Shown here piece after piece: positions 45,911 through 56,400 of a stretch of 64,000 nt of DNA. Within the stretch, counting starts at the first letter, position 1; every line of letters begins with the position of its first letter. The stretch is taken from contig NZ_NEVL01000006.1 of the NCBI RefSeq assembly GCF_002261335.1, forward strand, positions 62,001 through 126,000, written 5' to 3'. The position numbers and the translations under genes are program-made. The notes below the pieces were generated by a model. That model ran no database searches and was not told where the DNA came from. It was given only the letters and a program-made list of their open reading frames with translations. Origin of the DNA: Bordetella genomosp. 1 (lineage in GTDB: Bacteria; Pseudomonadota; Gammaproteobacteria; Burkholderiales; Burkholderiaceae_B).

Positions 45911-46714
45911 ATGGGCATCCCCGCTATCGGCCTGGGCACTTTCCGCCTGCAGGGCCAGACCGTCATCGACTCGGTGCGCAACGCGCTCGAGGTCGGCTAC
46001 CGCGCCATCGACACCGCGCAGATCTACGGCAACGAAGCCGACATCGGCCAGGCCATCGCCGAATCCGGTGTCGCGCGCAACGATCTCTATCTCACCACCA
46101 AGATCTGGACCGACAACCTGGCCGGCGACGCGCTCATCCCGAGCCTGAAAGACAGCCTGCAGCGCCTGCGCACCGATCGCATGGACCTGACGCTGATCCA
46201 CTGGCCCTCGCCCGGCCAGGCCGTGCCGCTGGCCGAAACCCTGCAGGCGTTGGCCGAGGCCCGCGCCCAGGGGCTCACCGGCGCCATCGGCATCTCGAAC
46301 TTCACCATCGCCCTGAGCCGCGAAGCCCGGGCGCTGGCCGGCGCCGACGCGATCGCCACCAACCAGGTCGAGATCAGCCCCTATCTGCAGAACGCCAGGC
46401 TCGCCGCCTATGCCCGCGAGAGCGGGCTGCACCTGACCTCGTACATGACGCTGGCCTACGGCAAGGTGCTGGGCGAGCCGGTGCTCAACGACATCGCCCG
46501 CGCGCACGGCGCCACGCCCGCGCAAGTGGCGCTGGCCTGGGCCCTGCAGCTGGGCTACGCCGTGATCCCCTCGTCGACCCGGCGCGAAAACCTGGCCGGC
46601 AACCTCAAGGCGCAGGACCTGCGCCTGACGGCCGACGACATGGCCCGCATCGCCACGCTCGATCGCGGCGAACGCCAGGCCAATCCCGACGGGCTCGCGC
46701 CCGCCTGGGACTGA
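45911..46714 (+). CDS. dkgB: Aldo/keto reductase, 2,5-didehydrogluconate reductase B-like
   Basis: This 267-residue NADPH-dependent reductase has the (beta/alpha)8 fold and the length of DkgB. The catalytic tetrad is visible: Asp in [13 protein letters not shown] (about 37-49) with its Tyr, Lys in LTTKIW and His in LTLIHWPSP. The coenzyme end includes AYGKVLGEP and [15 protein letters not shown], whose Arg contacts the 2'-phosphate of NADPH. An AGGAG ribosome binding site precedes the ATG. It likely reduces small aldehydes such as methylglyoxal or keto-gluconates. It is followed 12 bases later by a luciferase-like gene. Confidence 0.9.
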
Positions 46715-46726
46715 GCGGAGCGCCCC

Positions 46727-47683
46727 ATGTCCGCCCTGCAACGCCTGACCCAGGGCGGCTTCAGCCTCGGCCTGGAGCTGCCGCTCGACAACGATTGGTC
46801 GCCCGATGGCGAAGCCCGCCGTCTGCGCGACGGCCGGCCGTTCGGCGTGCCGGACATCCGGCAACAGAATGCGCTCGCGATCCTGGCCGACCAGCTCGGC
46901 TTTCGCGCGCTCTGGCTGCGCGACGTGCCGGTCTATGACCCGGCGTTCGGCGATGCGGCGCAGGTGCACGAGGTGTTCACCTACCTCGGCTACCTCGCGG
47001 GCGTGACGCGCAACATCCTGCTGGGCACCGCGGCCGTGGTGCTGCCGCTGCGCGAGCCGGTGCTCACGCTCAAGGCGGCCGCCAGCGTCGACCAGCTCTC
47101 GGGCGGTCGGCTGCTGCTCGGCATCGCCAGCGGCGACCGGCCGGTGGAATACCCGATCTTCGGCCGCGACTTCGATACGCGCGGCGCCGCGTTGCGCGCA
47201 CAGGTGGCGCAGTTGCGCGGCGGCCGCGGCGCGCTGCCCGAGGGCATCGACGTGCTGCCGCGCCCCGCGCAGGCCGCGCTGCCGCTGCTGGTGGCGGGGC
47301 TGGCACAGCAGACGCCGGAATGGGTCGGGCAGCACATGGACGGCTGGCTCGCCTATCCCGGCACGCCGGAGGACCACGTGCGCCGCGCGGCGCTGTGGCG
47401 CGAGGTGGCGGGCGCCAAGCCCTACGTGAGCTTCATCCACCTCGACCTCGCCGAGGATCCCGACGCCCCCTTGCAGCGCTACCGCTTCGGCTGCCGCACC
47501 GGCCGTCGTGCGCTGATCGAGGAGCTGGAGGCGATGCGCGCGGCGGGCGTGGCCCACGTCGGCCTGCAACTGCGGCGCAACCGCCGCCCGCTCGAGGAAA
47601 CGTTGCACGAGCTGGCGCAGGAAGTCATGCCGGTGGTGCAGCGCGCGCCCGCGGTCGCGGGGGCCGAGGCCGAGGCCGCTTGA
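46727..47683 (+). CDS. Luciferase-like (LLM class) oxidoreductase
   Basis: This 318-residue flavin-dependent TIM-barrel enzyme matches the luciferase-type oxidoreductases of the BA3436 group. Blocks are FSLGLELPLDNDW at the N terminus, ADQLGFRALWLRDVPVYDPAFGDAAQ, ILLGTAAVVLPLREPVLTLKAAASVD and GRLLLGIASGDRPVEYPIFG. It would use FMNH2 or F420-like flavin; FMN is expected here. Twelve bases separate it from dkgB, so both probably respond to the divergent LysR regulator. The reaction is unknown. Confidence 0.88.
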   Translation: MSALQRLTQGGFSLGLELPLDNDWSPDGEARRLRDGRPFGVPDIRQQNALAILADQLGFRALWLRDVPVYDPAFGDAAQVHEVFTYLGYLAGVTRNILLGTAAVVLPLREPVLTLKAAASVDQLSGGRLLLGIASGDRPVEYPIFGRDFDTRGAALRAQVAQLRGGRGALPEGIDVLPRPAQAALPLLVAGLAQQTPEWVGQHMDGWLAYPGTPEDHVRRAALWREVAGAKPYVSFIHLDLAEDPDAPLQRYRFGCRTGRRALIEELEAMRAAGVAHVGLQLRRNRRPLEETLHELAQEVMPVVQRAPAVAGAEAEAA

Positions 47684-47804
47684 ACGCAGATACCCACACT
47701 TCTGCTACACAACTTCACACGTCGCGGCCCGGCGGCCTCTAGAATCCGGTCTCGAGGCCGCCCCGCGCGGCGGCCTGACCGACCTGCCGTCCGCCGGAGT
47801 CCCG

Positions 47805-48704
47805 ATGCCCCCGTTCTTCCCTCTCCGATCCGCCCGCCGCGCCGTGCGCACGCTGGCCTGCCTGCTGTCCGCCTGCAGCGTCCTGGCGTGGGCGCCCGCG
47901 CAGGCCGGCGAAACGGCCACCGCCTTCGTCGCCACGCAGGCGGGCCAGGACGCGGCGGACGCGGCCGCCCGCCTGCCCATCGCGCCGTTCGAGGCATTGG
48001 AATACACCACGTCCAACGGCGTGCGCCTGTCGTACCGGCTGCTGCCGCCGCCGCAGATCAAGACGGGCGAACGCTATCCGCTTGTCGTGATGCTGCACGG
48101 CTCGGGCGGCATGGGCAACGACAACGAAAGCCAGCTCGGCGGCCTCGCCCGCAGCTGGGCCGCGCCCGACCTGCGCACCCGCTACCCCGCGTACGTGCTG
48201 GTGCCGCAGACGCGCACGCGCACGGCCCGCTACTCGCGCGACAGCCATGGCGTGGTCACCGCCGAGGCCGGCCCGGCGCTGGCCGACGTGCTCGCCGCCA
48301 TCGCCTACGTGCGCGACAGCCACGCCGTCGATCCGCAGCGCATCTATGCCGTGGGCTTCTCCATGGGCGCCAGCGCCGCCCTGCAGGCCGCGCTCGCCAA
48401 GCCGGATCTGTTCGCCGGCATCGTCGCCATCGCGGCGGTGCCGCCCTCGTCCAAGCGCGCCGCCGCGGCCGCGACGGCCGCCGTCCCTCTGTGGCTGGTG
48501 CACGGCGACGCCGACGACGAGAACCCCTATGCCGGCAGCCAGGCCTGGTATCGCGACCTCAGCGCCGCCGGCGCGCCGCTCGAGTTCCACACCTACACCG
48601 GCATGGACCATCGCGTGCCGCCCGACATGCTCACCGGCCAGCCCTGGCGCGATTGGTTGTTCGCGCAACGACGTCGGCCGCCCGAAGCGGCGCCGGGTTC
48701 CTGA
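47805..48704 (+). CDS. Secreted alpha/beta-hydrolase, prolyl-oligopeptidase-like esterase
   Basis: The 299-residue protein has a signal peptide (ARRAVRTLACLLSACSVLAW, cleaved near AQA). The alpha/beta-hydrolase core has the oxyanion segment LVVMLHGSGGMGND, the nucleophile elbow GFSMGAS (about 182-188), the acid in LVHGDADDENP and the histidine in GMDHRVP. The size and DNESQLGGLARSW fit secreted phospholipase/carboxylesterase or PHB-depolymerase-like esterases. A TAGAAT hexamer lies about 65 bases upstream as a possible -10 element. It is probably periplasmic or extracellular; the substrate is unknown. Confidence 0.9.
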   Translation: MPPFFPLRSARRAVRTLACLLSACSVLAWAPAQAGETATAFVATQAGQDAADAAARLPIAPFEALEYTTSNGVRLSYRLLPPPQIKTGERYPLVVMLHGSGGMGNDNESQLGGLARSWAAPDLRTRYPAYVLVPQTRTRTARYSRDSHGVVTAEAGPALADVLAAIAYVRDSHAVDPQRIYAVGFSMGASAALQAALAKPDLFAGIVAIAAVPPSSKRAAAAATAAVPLWLVHGDADDENPYAGSQAWYRDLSAAGAPLEFHTYTGMDHRVPPDMLTGQPWRDWLFAQRRRPPEAAPGS

Positions 48705-48791
48705 GCCGATGCAGAGGCATCGCGAGTGCCCGCAAGGATCGGCGGGCTGGCGGCAGCCCTGCAGCCGCAGCACCGCGCCGGGCCATGGCGC

Positions 48792-48820
48792 TTGCGGGGC
48801 GCTGCAACGCCCCGTATAGT
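48792..48820 (+). promoter_or_regulatory. Promoter of the leader peptide/NTF2-like unit
   Basis: TTGCGG (48792-48797) and TATAGT (48815-48820) are separated by exactly 17 bases. A perfect inverted repeat, GGGGCG-CTGCAA-CGCCCC (48796-48813), fills the spacer and could be a repressor site. The -10 element ends seven bases before an ATG, so the leader peptide would be translated from a nearly leaderless transcript. Confidence 0.55.
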
Positions 48821-48827
48821 CAGGCAC

Positions 48828-48875
48828 ATGAAGCCCACCGCGCCCGCCCGCCGCATCATTACCGCCATTCCCTGA
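48828..48875 (+). CDS. Leader peptide MKPTAPARRIITAIP
   Basis: A 15-codon frame with ATG at 48828 and TGA at 48873 stands between a good promoter and a Rho-independent terminator. There is no room for a ribosome binding site if transcription begins near 48827, so initiation would be leaderless. The peptide has two adjacent Arg codons (CGC CGC), two adjacent Ile codons (ATC ATT) and a third Ile near the end. The codons overlap the first arm of a set of mutually exclusive hairpins, as in amino-acid biosynthetic attenuators. The peptide itself is expected to be regulatory only. I know of no described homologue. Confidence 0.6.
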   Translation: MKPTAPARRIITAIP

Positions 48876-48921
48876 ACGGCGGGCTGCGCACGACACCAAC
48901 CCGCCAGAAGGCGGGTTTTTT
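48842..48921 (+). promoter_or_regulatory. Candidate transcription attenuator upstream of the NTF2-like gene
   Basis: Four arms alternate. Arm 1 GCCCGCCG (48846-48853, inside the leader peptide) pairs perfectly with arm 2 CGGCGGGC (48877-48884). Arm 2 GGCGGG also pairs with arm 3 CCCGCC (48900-48905). Arm 3 as AACCCGCC pairs with arm 4 GGCGGGTT (48910-48917) around AGAA, followed by T to 48921: the terminator. A ribosome stalled at the Arg or Ile codons would cover arm 1 and free arm 2 to pair with arm 3, which prevents the terminator. A ribosome that reaches the TGA would cover arm 2 and allow termination. Confidence 0.65.
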
Positions 48922-48958
48922 CGTTCTTCTGGCGCCTGTTTCCCACGAGGAGCCCCGC

Positions 48959-49357
48959 ATGAGCGACCATACCCTGCGCCACGTCATCGAAGCCTGCGAC
49001 CGCGCGATCACCGCCGCCGACTACGACACCCTGATGACCCACTACGCGGACGACGCCGCGCTGGTGATCCAGCCCGGCCACGTCGTGCACGGCAAGGACC
49101 GCATCCGCCAGGCCTTCATCGCCATCGCCGCCCACTTCCAGCACAAGCTCAAGGTTACGCAGGGCGAGATGCAGGTGATCGAAGGCGCCGGCACCGCGCT
49201 GGTCATCATGGAGACGCACCTCGAGATCCCCGCCGCCGACGGCACGCCCACCCACATCACCCGCCGCGCCACCTACGTCTTCCGCCACGACCCCGACGGC
49301 CAGTGGCGCTGCACGGTGGACAACTCGTACGGGACGGATTTGTTGAGCGCGCAATGA
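48959..49357 (+). CDS. NTF2-like (SgcJ/DUF4440 type) protein
   Basis: This 132-residue cytosolic protein has the cone-shaped SnoaL/NTF2 fold: VIEACDRAITAADYDTLMTHYADDAALVIQPG, HGKDRIRQAFIAIAAHF, VTQGEMQVIEGAGTALVIMET and WRCTVDNSYGTDLL. The family includes polyketide cyclase-like, ketosteroid isomerase-like and unknown proteins, so no reaction can be named. The ATG at 48959 has a GAGGAG ribosome binding site. It is the only gene downstream of the putative attenuator, 38 bases after its T run. The next gene on this strand is far away. Confidence 0.88.
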   Translation: MSDHTLRHVIEACDRAITAADYDTLMTHYADDAALVIQPGHVVHGKDRIRQAFIAIAAHFQHKLKVTQGEMQVIEGAGTALVIMETHLEIPAADGTPTHITRRATYVFRHDPDGQWRCTVDNSYGTDLLSAQ

Positions 49358-49494
49358 GGGCCACGGGCGTGCACGTCATGCGTGTGCGCTTGCCGCGGCC
49401 CCGTCGATCCGCCCGCTGGGCCGCAGGCTCAGGAAACGCATGCTTGCGCGGATCGCGCGCGCGTTGACGCTGCCACCCGATGGAATCGGCACCG

Positions 49495-49818
49495 TCAGGC
49501 GCCGGCGATGTCGACGCGAAGACTGCGGCCGCGCACGCGTATCTGCGCGAGGATCGCATTGAAGGCCGGACTCTCGTGGGCGACTAGCGCGCGCCCTAGC
49601 GTTTCCGGTGCGACGCATATCTGCTGCGCAGCGCGGTCCAGGCCGCGCACGCGCACAATGTCGCCCAGCGCCGCGTGCACCAGTCGGCCATCGCCAGGGT
49701 CCTCGGCCAGGCAAGCGGCGAGGTACATCGCGGCGGCTTCATCCGCCTCGAGCGCCTGAGCGGCGTCCCACCGGGAAAATCCCGCGGGTGGGCTGTGAAC
49801 TGCAGCGAGGCTCGACAT
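49495..49818 (-). CDS. higA: HigA/HI1420-type antitoxin of a type II toxin-antitoxin pair
   Basis: The 107-residue protein matches COG3636 addiction-module antidotes: DAAQALEADEAAAMYLAACLAEDPGDGRLVHAALGDIVRVRG, then a helix-turn-helix in LDRAAQQICVAPETLGRAL. It should bind and neutralise the adjacent toxin and repress the operon. Its ATG follows the toxin TGA without a gap, which couples their translation. The toxin gene comes first, as in other HigBA-like operons. The C-terminal tail RVRGRSLRVDIAGA differs from typical short endings. Confidence 0.88.
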   Translation of the reverse strand: MSSLAAVHSPPAGFSRWDAAQALEADEAAAMYLAACLAEDPGDGRLVHAALGDIVRVRGLDRAAQQICVAPETLGRALVAHESPAFNAILAQIRVRGRSLRVDIAGA

Positions 49819-50118
49819 TCAAAATCTCCACATGCGGGCCAGAACGCTGGCCTTTCTAATGTCCATATCCTGAGTGCGCTTGTTGCCACCGCAAAGCAGC
49901 ACGATGGCAGCGTGGTGACGAATGAAATACACGCGGTAGCCGGGCCCCACATCGATGCGCATCTCGGAGACTCGCCCCGCAACCGGTCGCCAGTTGCCCA
50001 GACTTCCACAGGATGCAAGGCGGATACGCGCATGGATTCGTGCCCACGCAATCTTGTCACTCAGCCTGTCGTGCCATGCCCTGAAATCATCGCTTTGGAT
50101 AATTTCGAGCACATCCAT
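49819..50118 (-). CDS. higB: HigB/RelE-type toxin of a type II toxin-antitoxin pair
   Basis: This 99-residue protein belongs to the HI1419-type addiction killer proteins of the RelE/ParE superfamily. The family blocks are FRAWHDRLSDKIAWARIHARIRLASCGSLGNWRPVAGRVSEMRIDVGPGYRVYFI (shown only by its features: the WxxRL start, the ARI-ARI repeat and the GPGYRVYF strand) and VLLCGGNKRTQDMDI. Such toxins are ribosome-dependent mRNA endonucleases. The C-terminal basic residues needed for activity appear intact (KRTQ, RKASVLARMW). The gene is the first of the two-gene operon. Confidence 0.9.
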   Translation of the reverse strand: MDVLEIIQSDDFRAWHDRLSDKIAWARIHARIRLASCGSLGNWRPVAGRVSEMRIDVGPGYRVYFIRHHAAIVLLCGGNKRTQDMDIRKASVLARMWRF

Positions 50119-50423
50119 CGTCAGCCGGCCGGGGGCTCTGCTCTATATCGAGCAACGAACACCTGGCACGGACAATGATGGAACGCATACTGAATGCCCA
50201 CCATGAACCGCCTCGGTCGAATGCGGGCCACGCACAGGCGTGGCGCATCGCGACTCGTATCATCACCGCACGCGCCTCGCGCGCGTGGCCGGTCGTTCAG
50301 GATCAGGACGGGTCCCCACCTCGGGGGGACCGGAAGGACCGCGACGTCACGGCCGGCAGCGCATGCTGCGCGCTGCGGCAAGCATCAACCCGCAGGCAGA
50401 CCTGCGGCGGCCGCGCCGCGATC
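50119..50423. other. 305-base region with no gene
   Basis: No coding frame is convincing on either strand. A GC-rich inverted repeat with arms GGTCCCC and GGGGACC lies at about 50311-50331 without a T run. The region upstream of the toxin gene must hold its promoter; no hexamer pair stands out. Confidence 0.35.
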
Positions 50424-51389
50424 TCACCCCTTCCGCGCGGGTCCCGCCTGCGCTTCCCAGGCCAGCTTGTCGTTGGACAAGAGGTCTTCGCCGTCCCAGC
50501 GATAGGCCACCAGCGGACCGCCGGCCGCCGCCGACCAATCCAGGCATGCGAGCTTGCCGCTCTCGATCCTGGGCGGCCCCTTGAACCAGTGATGGCCGAT
50601 GAAGATCGGCGCGCCGCTGATGGGCGTGCGATCGAAGCCTTCGGGCAGCGCCAGGCCCAGTATCTGCGCCTCCTGCCCCGCAGGCACCAGCGCGACCTCA
50701 TGCAGGGCACTCGCCCAATCGCGCCAGTTCGCGAGCCGCACCTCGTAATGACGATGCCCTTCCTTGTCCTCGATGTAGCGGCCTTCGGGCAGCGCCAGCT
50801 CCACCCCCGAGGTCAGCCGCTTCCTCGCCTGCTCCAGCGCCGAACCCTTTCGATGCGTGGCCAGCAGCACGGCGTCGTCCAGGCGCTTGCCCGGCCTCCA
50901 GCCCGCATCGGATAGCGTGCTGACCGCCGCGTCGTCCCAGCTGGCATGCGCCACGCGGATGCCGCCCAGGTCCATAAAGGGTGGCAGTTGGCGAAACCAG
51001 GCCACCCACGCCGCATGGGCCGCACTGCCTTCTCCGATCTGCGCGATGAACGCGCCGTGTTGCTTGCGGTTCTTGCGGCTCTTCTCCGAGTCGCCCCGGT
51101 TGGGGCGCAGGAACTCGCCCGGACTGTCGGGATCTTCCGTGACGTAGCCGATGGCGTTGAATTCGTGGTTGCCCATGATGCACAGCGCCTGGCCCTCGTC
51201 CACCATCGCGCGGACGATTTCCAGCACCCGGGCCTGGCCCGGACCCCGGTCCACCAGATCGCCCAGGAATACCGCCTGGCGCCCAGCGGGCGCGCGATAG
51301 CCCCTGCCCGCCGGCACGTACCCGAGGTGCTTCAACAGACCTTCGAGCTTCCGGTCTTCCCCATGGATGTCACCGATGATGTCGTACAT
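50424..51389 (-). CDS. Metallophosphoesterase, PPP-family protein phosphatase-like
   Basis: This 321-residue cytosolic enzyme has the calcineurin-like metal motifs: DIIGDIHGEDRK (D-x-H at residues 5-9), GDLVDRGPGQ (about 48-57), IMGNHEFNAIGY (about 80-91), a histidine in VAHASWDD, and GHHWF near the C terminus. The GDxHG/GDxxDRG/GNHE set is that of PPP-type phosphatases and Ap4A hydrolases. The ATG at 51389 begins MYDIIGDIHG, the usual start; a GTG or ATG upstream adds 14 unlikely residues. The substrate is unknown. Confidence 0.92.
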   Translation of the reverse strand: MYDIIGDIHGEDRKLEGLLKHLGYVPAGRGYRAPAGRQAVFLGDLVDRGPGQARVLEIVRAMVDEGQALCIMGNHEFNAIGYVTEDPDSPGEFLRPNRGDSEKSRKNRKQHGAFIAQIGEGSAAHAAWVAWFRQLPPFMDLGGIRVAHASWDDAAVSTLSDAGWRPGKRLDDAVLLATHRKGSALEQARKRLTSGVELALPEGRYIEDKEGHRHYEVRLANWRDWASALHEVALVPAGQEAQILGLALPEGFDRTPISGAPIFIGHHWFKGPPRIESGKLACLDWSAAAGGPLVAYRWDGEDLLSNDKLAWEAQAGPARKG

Positions 51390-51641
51390 GCCTGCGCCTC
51401 CGTGCCGACCGCTGAATTGCCGCGTGCGCAACCTTCCCGGGAAAGATCACGCCATGTCCACATTGTCTGCGATCTCGAAGCCCCCTGCGATACCCGAACG
51501 ACGGCGCTGCTCGCCGAAGCGCCGGGCCGGAACCGTCGTCGAGTGACCGCAAGCTCGAGCGTGCAGGCGGCGGCCCGATGCGACGTATCCGGCTGGACGC
51601 TTGCGCCGCCCGTGCCCGCGCGCGCCGCGGCGCCGCCCAAG

Positions 51642-51672
51642 AAAAAACCCCGCAGGCTCGCGCATGCGGGGT
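51642..51672 (-). terminator. ychF terminator
   Basis: ACCCCGCA at 51647-51654 pairs with TGCGGGGT at 51665-51672. On the minus strand the stem is followed by T6, ending ychF transcripts. Confidence 0.88.
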
Positions 51673-51690
51673 TCGTTCGGCAGCCGGCGG

Positions 51691-51714
51691 GGCGGCGGCG
51701 GCGGCGGCGGCGGC
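51691..51714. repeat. (GGC)8 trinucleotide run
   Basis: Eight perfect GGC units lie six bases after the ychF stop (in minus-strand sense GCC units), outside any gene. Slippage could vary the length between the stop codon and the terminator. Confidence 0.85.
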
Positions 51715-51719
51715 AGGCC

Positions 51720-52811
<1,092 letters not shown>

Positions 52812-56323: not shown

Positions 56324-56400
56324 TGGCTGGGGAGGAAGGATTCGAACCTTCGCATGCCGGAATCAAAATCCGGTGCCTTAACCAGCTTGGCGACTCCCCA
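56324..56400 (-). tRNA. tRNA-Gln (anticodon TTG)
   Basis: The minus strand folds as a complete 77-base tRNA with encoded CCA. The acceptor stem is TGGGGAG paired with CTCCCCA, the anticodon stem CCGGA/TCCGG surrounds loop TTTTGAT with anticodon TTG, and the T arm holds GGTTCGAATCC. The anticodon reads CAA and CAG glutamine codons. It lies between ispE and prs, its usual betaproteobacterial place. Confidence 0.97.

Follow-up and report, generated by a model that had tools for sequence, protein, structure and literature searches.

Amino-acid attenuators of Proteobacteria, such as those of trp, his, leu, ilvGMEDA, ilvBN and thr, share a general design of leader peptide, RNA arms and terminator. 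The RNA P9, which Livny and colleagues reportedly discovered in P. aeruginosa close to a threonine dehydratase gene, is filed in Rfam (RF00624) as a gene and not as a cis element. According to the available parts of the respective papers, ilvG, ilvI and thrA leaders have been catalogued in Shewanella (PMC2659441), the trp leader of S. meliloti is leaderless, with the 5′ end of rnTrpL being the ATG of the peTrpL frame (PMC7298713), and Caulobacter has ilvBN attenuation and a leader frame named before ileS (PMC4117421). A term search of the available text of PMC2965389 and PMC1262725 returned no mention of ilvA, and the literature searched, from which subscription papers were largely absent, contained no mention of RF00624. 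Among the literature matches listed, no isoleucine attenuator of ilvA, SnoaL or AAA_33 genes appeared in the titles or the beginnings of the abstracts.

The window analysed here is a 64,000-nucleotide stretch of the 5.6-Mb genome of Bordetella genomosp. 1 (G000:C1:62001-126000). Judged from its sequence, the segment at window positions 48792–48958 is very probably a transcription attenuator of the leaderless, ribosome-mediated type, through which the level of charged tRNA-Ile would govern transcription of the SnoaL/NTF2 gene that follows. The features of the locus are the following.

48792–48797, + strand: −35 element TTGCGG, placed relative to the leader ATG similarly to that of relatives
48815–48820, + strand: −10 element TATAGT, separated from the −35 element by a 17-nt spacer and ending 7 nt before the leader ATG
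48828 or next to it, + strand: transcription start (leaderless), predicted from the promoter spacing
48828–48875, + strand: leader peptide frame of 15 codons, MKPTAPARRIITAIP, with the stop codon TGA at 48873–48875
48855–48860, + strand: putative regulatory Ile-Ile codons ATC ATT; a third Ile codon, ATT, is at 48867–48869
48846–48853, + strand: arm 1 of the original prediction, GCCCGCCG, forming 8 bp with arm 2, outside the family position
48862–48866, + strand: arm 1 at the usual family position, CCGCC, on the 3′ side of the Ile codons, 5 bp
48877–48884, + strand: arm 2, CGGCGGGC, common to the protector and the antiterminator
48898–48905, + strand: arm 3, AACCCGCC, forming 6 bp with arm 2 (GGCGGG:CCCGCC) and 8 bp with arm 4
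48910–48921, + strand: intrinsic terminator, composed of arm 4, GGCGGGTT (48910–48917), and a run of six T (48916–48921), two of which are common with arm 4
48852–48919, + strand: match to RF00624 (P9), 47.6 bits
48902–48911, + strand: end of arm 3, terminator loop and start of arm 4, CGCCAGAAGG, complementary to arm 5
48925–48934, + strand: arm 5, TCTTCTGGCG, 3′ of the T run
48959–49357, + strand: target gene, encoding a 132-residue YybH-like SnoaL/NTF2 protein (TIGR02246, PF13474)

The element has in common with the trp, his, leu, ilvGMEDA, ilvBN and thr attenuators a leader peptide with regulatory codons, mutually exclusive arms 1–4 and an intrinsic terminator; however, its leader is devoid of a Shine-Dalgarno sequence, and its target is a lone gene instead of a biosynthetic operon. 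The 5′ end of the transcript is predicted at the leader ATG, as in S. meliloti rnTrpL/peTrpL, which differs in its Trp codons, its trpE(G) target and its origin from Alphaproteobacteria. A likeness of design also extends to Caulobacter, with tandem Ile/Val codons and terminator control in ilvBN and a short frame before ileS.

The leader matches the RF00624 covariance model over its full length (1–74) with a score of 47.6 bits, above the gathering score of 43, in both sequence and structure, and it has the Ile codons, arm 1:2 hairpin and terminator of P9. Whereas P9 is catalogued as an sRNA gene, the copy in the window lies before a SnoaL gene and not before a threonine dehydratase gene. A second RF00624 copy in the same genome (64.9 bits, G000:C2:78899; L001) starts 129 nt before ilvA, which encodes threonine ammonia-lyase (TIGR01124), and its leader, MDVRPTFLAASIITAIIHMAGQATK, starts 8 nt after a −10-like hexamer. 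The RF00624 consensus translates as IIITAIPVMAG-stop. Because of this frame and the ilvA copy, what is catalogued as an ‘sRNA’ has the look of an attenuator leader, a reading that would place RF00624 in another class. The window element is best described as a recurrent attenuator of known working principle, belonging to RF00624 by score, with a new target. The combination had been proposed to be undescribed, which, among the literature matches listed, holds for the SnoaL target; however, the element itself has kin in RF00624/P9, including the ilvA paralogue. The working principle was known, as was the family under another name. The novelty lies in four points: the SnoaL gene as target, the leaderless start as a rule, the interpretation of P9 as an attenuator and an additional arm past the U-run.

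The promoter, short frame, exclusive arms 1–4 and terminator were all found where they had first been noted, with hexamers 17 bases apart and the ATG seven bases past the −10 element. The 1:2, 2:3 and 3:4 pairings are mutually exclusive. The 97-nt leader folds with −42.2 kcal/mol (z −4.2; 0/200 dinucleotide shuffles were as good), and the 8-bp arm 1 (48846–48853) prevails in the predicted fold, with the 5-bp arm at the family position as an alternative. The TGA ends 1 nt before arm 2, and the stop codons of the compared relatives are close before, within or soon after arm 2. The combination of a promoter, an ATG 5–8 nt past the −10 element, a short frame and a terminator occurs at one site on both strands of the window and at none in 20 block shuffles of it, the pattern having been written after the site had been seen. 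A generic promoter scan reported no promoter in 46000–52000, because TTGCGG/TATAGT scores 8/12 and the threshold was 9. A chance origin is countered most strongly by the RF00624 match together with the recurrence in relatives. Matches of the leader to the SAH riboswitch (18.8 bits) and anti-hemB (15.8 bits) were far under their cut-offs and were rejected.

The ribosome-mediated attenuator logic that had been suggested is supported by the exclusive pairings, the family match and the recurrence of the element before SnoaL genes. We infer the start site, the translation and the direction of the response as follows. Transcription would begin at or next to the leader AUG, as indicated by the promoter spacing, and a ribosome would load on the 5′-terminal AUG and trail RNA polymerase. 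With ample Ile-tRNA, the ribosome would reach the UGA at 48873–48875 and cover arm 2, so that arms 3 and 4 would pair and transcription would end near 48921. When Ile-tRNA is scarce, the ribosome would stall at AUC-AUU (48855–48860), where it would probably cover both possible arm 1 segments, leaving arm 2 free to pair with arm 3; the terminator would not form, and the SnoaL gene would be transcribed. Without translation, arms 1 and 2 would pair and transcription would end. Two features speak against this model: the target is not among the known Ile genes, and arm 1 at the family position comprises just 5 bp.

Among the 268 family genomes searched with the SnoaL protein, seven gave a match. 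The promoter-leader-terminator-SnoaL unit is present in four of these: the genome of the window, Bordetella genomosp. 5 (G010; leader MRTPRHTARIIRTIL), Bordetella genomosp. 12 (G009; leader MPLPLTTRPIIVRIH) and a genome from another genus (G060; leader MNLCAPFSLIIITINQMVG). The cores of the four leaders, RIITAI, RIIRTI, PIIVRI and LIIITI, share Ile-Ile-x-x-Ile only, and not Arg-Arg. The expected conservation of the frame and arms is seen in some of the relatives. In G215 and G216 no leader is present, and the SnoaL gene comes immediately after a dehydrogenase-like frame; the match in G193 is partial. Three genomes from three further families (G277, G445 and G615), which are the only ones in the class draw of 369 genomes to score over the P9 cut-off besides the window's own, also have the leader before a SnoaL gene, bringing the joint occurrence of leader and SnoaL gene to seven genomes in four families. 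In most relatives arm 1 is directly 3′ of Ile-Ile. The 8-bp arm 1 pairing of the original prediction is present in the window, but its position upstream of the Ile codons is atypical; of the other SnoaL leaders, G009 alone has a partial counterpart (CCGCC).

SnoaL orthologues without the leader are common. The SnoaL protein profile A1, which was built with G277, G445 and G615 and matches these three by construction, added two genomes of the class draw, G403 and G535. The leader is absent from the upstream stretch examined in G403; in G535 the contig includes just 173 nt before the match, and the missing leader therefore says little. None of 28 Enterobacterales SnoaL loci has an RF00624 match at the gathering score, and the 27 upstream regions inspected by eye show no comparable leader; however, RF00624 also misses the G009 leader, so weak leaders could have escaped this search.

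RF00624 was matched in 6 of 15 genomes of the genus (E ≤ 0.01; 2 over the cut-off), 53 of 268 genomes of the family (E ≤ 0.001; 47 over the cut-off), 20 of 369 genomes of the class draw (4 over the cut-off, including the window's own) and 24 of 148 genomes of the order of G615 (E ≤ 1e-4; 10 over the cut-off). Order-level searches around G277 (1 genome) and G445 (6 genomes) gave no new match. Seven RF00624 places from the family search, one each in G043, G041, G045, G028, G030, G036 and G050, were left out. The 125 loci derived from RF00624 or protein matches were sorted by sequence motifs of the downstream gene, and 93 were assigned to classes: ilvA (36), AAA_33 kinase (34), FlaR-like (11), SnoaL (7), ileS (3) and thrA (2), counts that do not represent independent events because many loci are near-identical relatives. 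The 32 unclassed loci are mostly weak matches sharing little beyond the terminator; one of them, L087, has an ilvA-type leader. Family searches at one or two loci per class bore out ilvA (L001, L055), AAA_33 (L010, L101) and thrA (L155). The ileS locus L149 scored 562 bits on a match truncated where the locus ends, under the full-length cut-off, and the name FlaR-like is loose, since L147 reached 80 bits as a ‘DNA topology modulation protein’ against a cut-off of 215. The sibling targets ilvA, ileS and thrA are Ile-related. At the 34 loci with the small AAA_33 P-loop kinase, many of which are close relatives, an Ile leader precedes the kinase gene (for example L010 1501–1583 (−), L064 and L146), and a search for this kinase in the window's own genome gave no match at E ≤ 1e-5.

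The promoter geometry of the window, which fits the leaderless start originally proposed, is the rule among relatives. The leader ATG is 5–8 nt past the best −10 element in 83 of 87 distinct upstream regions (thrA loci left out) and in 10% of shuffled regions, while SD-like GGAG/GAGG/AGGA sequences 5–14 nt upstream were found in 2 of 89 leaders. The RF00624 model leaves the promoter region uncovered, and the geometry is therefore not built in. The loci off this geometry are L127 (G615), L109, L111 and L149.

Adjacent Ile codons are present in 91 of the 93 classed loci, the exceptions being L093 (MITTI) and L104 (LITTI); the window leader has the pattern ATC ATT NNN NNN ATT. In 27 distinct 20-codon AAA_33 leaders, Ile-Ile are the only invariant sense codons and the others occur in 2 to 15 forms, an invariance aided by the preference of the model for ATTATT and by a filter asking for such peptides. 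Owing to the same preference, the Ile conservation is independent only for G009 and G060, which were first found via the protein. Leaders of the family use 211 ATT and 51 ATC codons for Ile, and the downstream frames (longest frames, some possibly wrong) use 783 ATC, 115 ATT and 20 ATA. In five window genes ATC accounts for 67/67 and ATT for 0/67 Ile codons, and 19/22 Ile codons of the ilvA gene of the same genome are ATC; the window leader uses ATT. Single changes outside Ile-Ile are nonsynonymous in 1314 and synonymous in 735 cases, and their even spread over codon positions does not indicate that the peptide as such is under selection. A peptide without amino-acid constraint outside Ile-Ile is expected of a leader, but is no proof of its translation.

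The arms were compared in 66 unique leaders kept out of 89 with a leader and arm 2, with the thrA loci left out; in a separate comparison of the arms of relatives, the terminator of L143 was wrongly identified. In 39 distinct leaders of common spacing, arms 1 and 2 pair at 85% in register as against 31–56% when slid by 1–3. The central pair is A-U in 22, G-C in 6, G-U in 2 and unpaired in 9 of the 39. Arms 1 and 2 of the P9-type elements covary.

Past the T run, the segment 48925–48934 is complementary over 10 nt to 48902–48911, and the alternative hairpin 48894–48940 has a predicted energy of −19.4 kcal/mol (z −3.2; 2/200 shuffles as good). It is conceivable, if unlikely, that the element is a two-layer switch, in which arm 5 would hide the Shine-Dalgarno sequence of the target unless paired with the terminator loop, in addition to the control by the terminator. 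The complementarity of arm 5 to the loop beats dinucleotide shuffles, with no mismatch, in the SnoaL leaders (4/7 at p<0.05, combined p 3e-5) and in the ileS leaders (3/3, combined p 1e-4); however, it is not significant in the AAA_33 (0.089), FlaR-like (0.43) and ilvA (0.27) rows. Combined p values for the pairing of arm 5 with the Shine-Dalgarno sequence are 0.009 (AAA_33), 0.011 (ilvA), 0.016 (ileS) and 0.045 (FlaR-like), but in the SnoaL set this pairing is at chance level (0/7 at p<0.05, combined p 0.55), so that hiding of the Shine-Dalgarno sequence was rejected for this set, and the Shine-Dalgarno sequence of the window is just partly paired in the fold. The combined p values are too small because the rows are related, and in five AAA_33 rows (L112–L115, L117) arm 2 was taken for arm 4. 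The dinucleotide test comprised 43 rows; its arm 4 pattern missed most Achromobacter-like rows (genus tentative), and L109 and L111 were too short. With mononucleotide shuffles (75 distinct rows; the script found no terminator in L097, L115, L143 and L154), arm 5 pairs with the loop at p ≤ 0.05 in 6/7 SnoaL, 3/3 ileS, 5/9 FlaR-like, 5/29 AAA_33, 2/25 ilvA (both from Bordetella) and 0/2 thrA leaders. The matches between arm 5 and the loop use different sequences in some relatives. In the ileS leaders L149, L152 and L153, a segment past the terminator can pair both with the terminator loop and with the Shine-Dalgarno sequence.

There is a slight chance that the terminated transcript is itself the product, a P9-type trans-acting sRNA regulating other mRNAs, in which the short frame would be incidental. 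The filing of RF00624 as a gene speaks for this, as does the S. meliloti attenuator RNA rnTrpL, which works in trans according to the available part of PMC7298713, so that attenuator and trans roles could coexist. What argues instead for the isoleucine attenuator is that the elements consistently lie in cis before a small group of Ile-related and recurrent genes, that the Ile-Ile frame is placed against the arms and that the promoter is set at the ATG. It is very improbable that the locus consists of nothing but chance features and a terminator belonging to the hydrolase gene upstream: 124 nt separate the end of this gene (48704) from the leader ATG, but like units follow an aldo-keto reductase gene in G010 and another, unrelated gene in G009, which makes the hydrolase irrelevant, and the leader matches RF00624 and is the single such site in the window. 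Least credible of all is the sensing of arginine through the Arg-Arg codons that lie 5′ of Ile-Ile in the window and had been named with them as regulatory, since Ile-Ile is conserved, Arg-Arg is missing from the three other SnoaL leaders found via the protein (ARIIRTIL, RPIIVRIH and SLIIITIN), and sibling elements precede ilvA and ileS.

The presumed target of the isoleucine attenuator is, as first noted, a single NTF2/SgcJ-like gene, the product of which scores 46.3 bits for PF13474 and 38 bits for TIGR02246 (cut-off 33.95). Its closest solved chain is YybH (2gxf; profile E 7e-51), which we take to be a B. subtilis protein. To our knowledge, YybH has no established function, and none was apparent for YybH-like proteins in titles and abstracts among the literature matches listed. 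From its regulation, the SnoaL protein would be expected to have a part in isoleucine supply or in the charging of tRNA with isoleucine, or to safeguard one of these. In a wider proposal, to which we give about even chances, P9-type RNAs are not sRNAs but widespread leaderless isoleucine attenuators that would define a regulon for isoleucyl-tRNA stress, in Burkholderiales and elsewhere among the Gammaproteobacteria (in the GTDB sense), comprising ilvA, ileS and at least three further genes. The products of these three, the YybH-like NTF2 protein, the AAA_33 kinase and the ‘DNA topology modulation’-like P-loop protein, would then be so far unrecognised enzymes of isoleucine supply, safeguards of it, or defences switched on by inhibition of isoleucyl-tRNA synthetase, and the fifth arm would form a second, post-termination state. 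If this is correct, a family now catalogued among the small RNAs becomes a testable isoleucine sensor, the leaderless start is the rule of an attenuator family and not an oddity, and the YybH-like protein and two small P-loop proteins are linked through their regulation with isoleucine or with isoleucyl-tRNA.

The surroundings of the unit vary. In G010 the aldo-keto reductase gene ends directly 5′ of the leader, and in the window (45911–48958) genes for a luciferase-like monooxygenase and the hydrolase lie in between. Just 3′ of the SnoaL gene, at 49495–50118 (−), the window has an Antidote-like (PF21716) and a Gp49-like (PF05973, under the cut-off) gene, which are likely a toxin-antitoxin pair. 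A tRNA gene, matched by Rfam, is at 56327–56400 (−).
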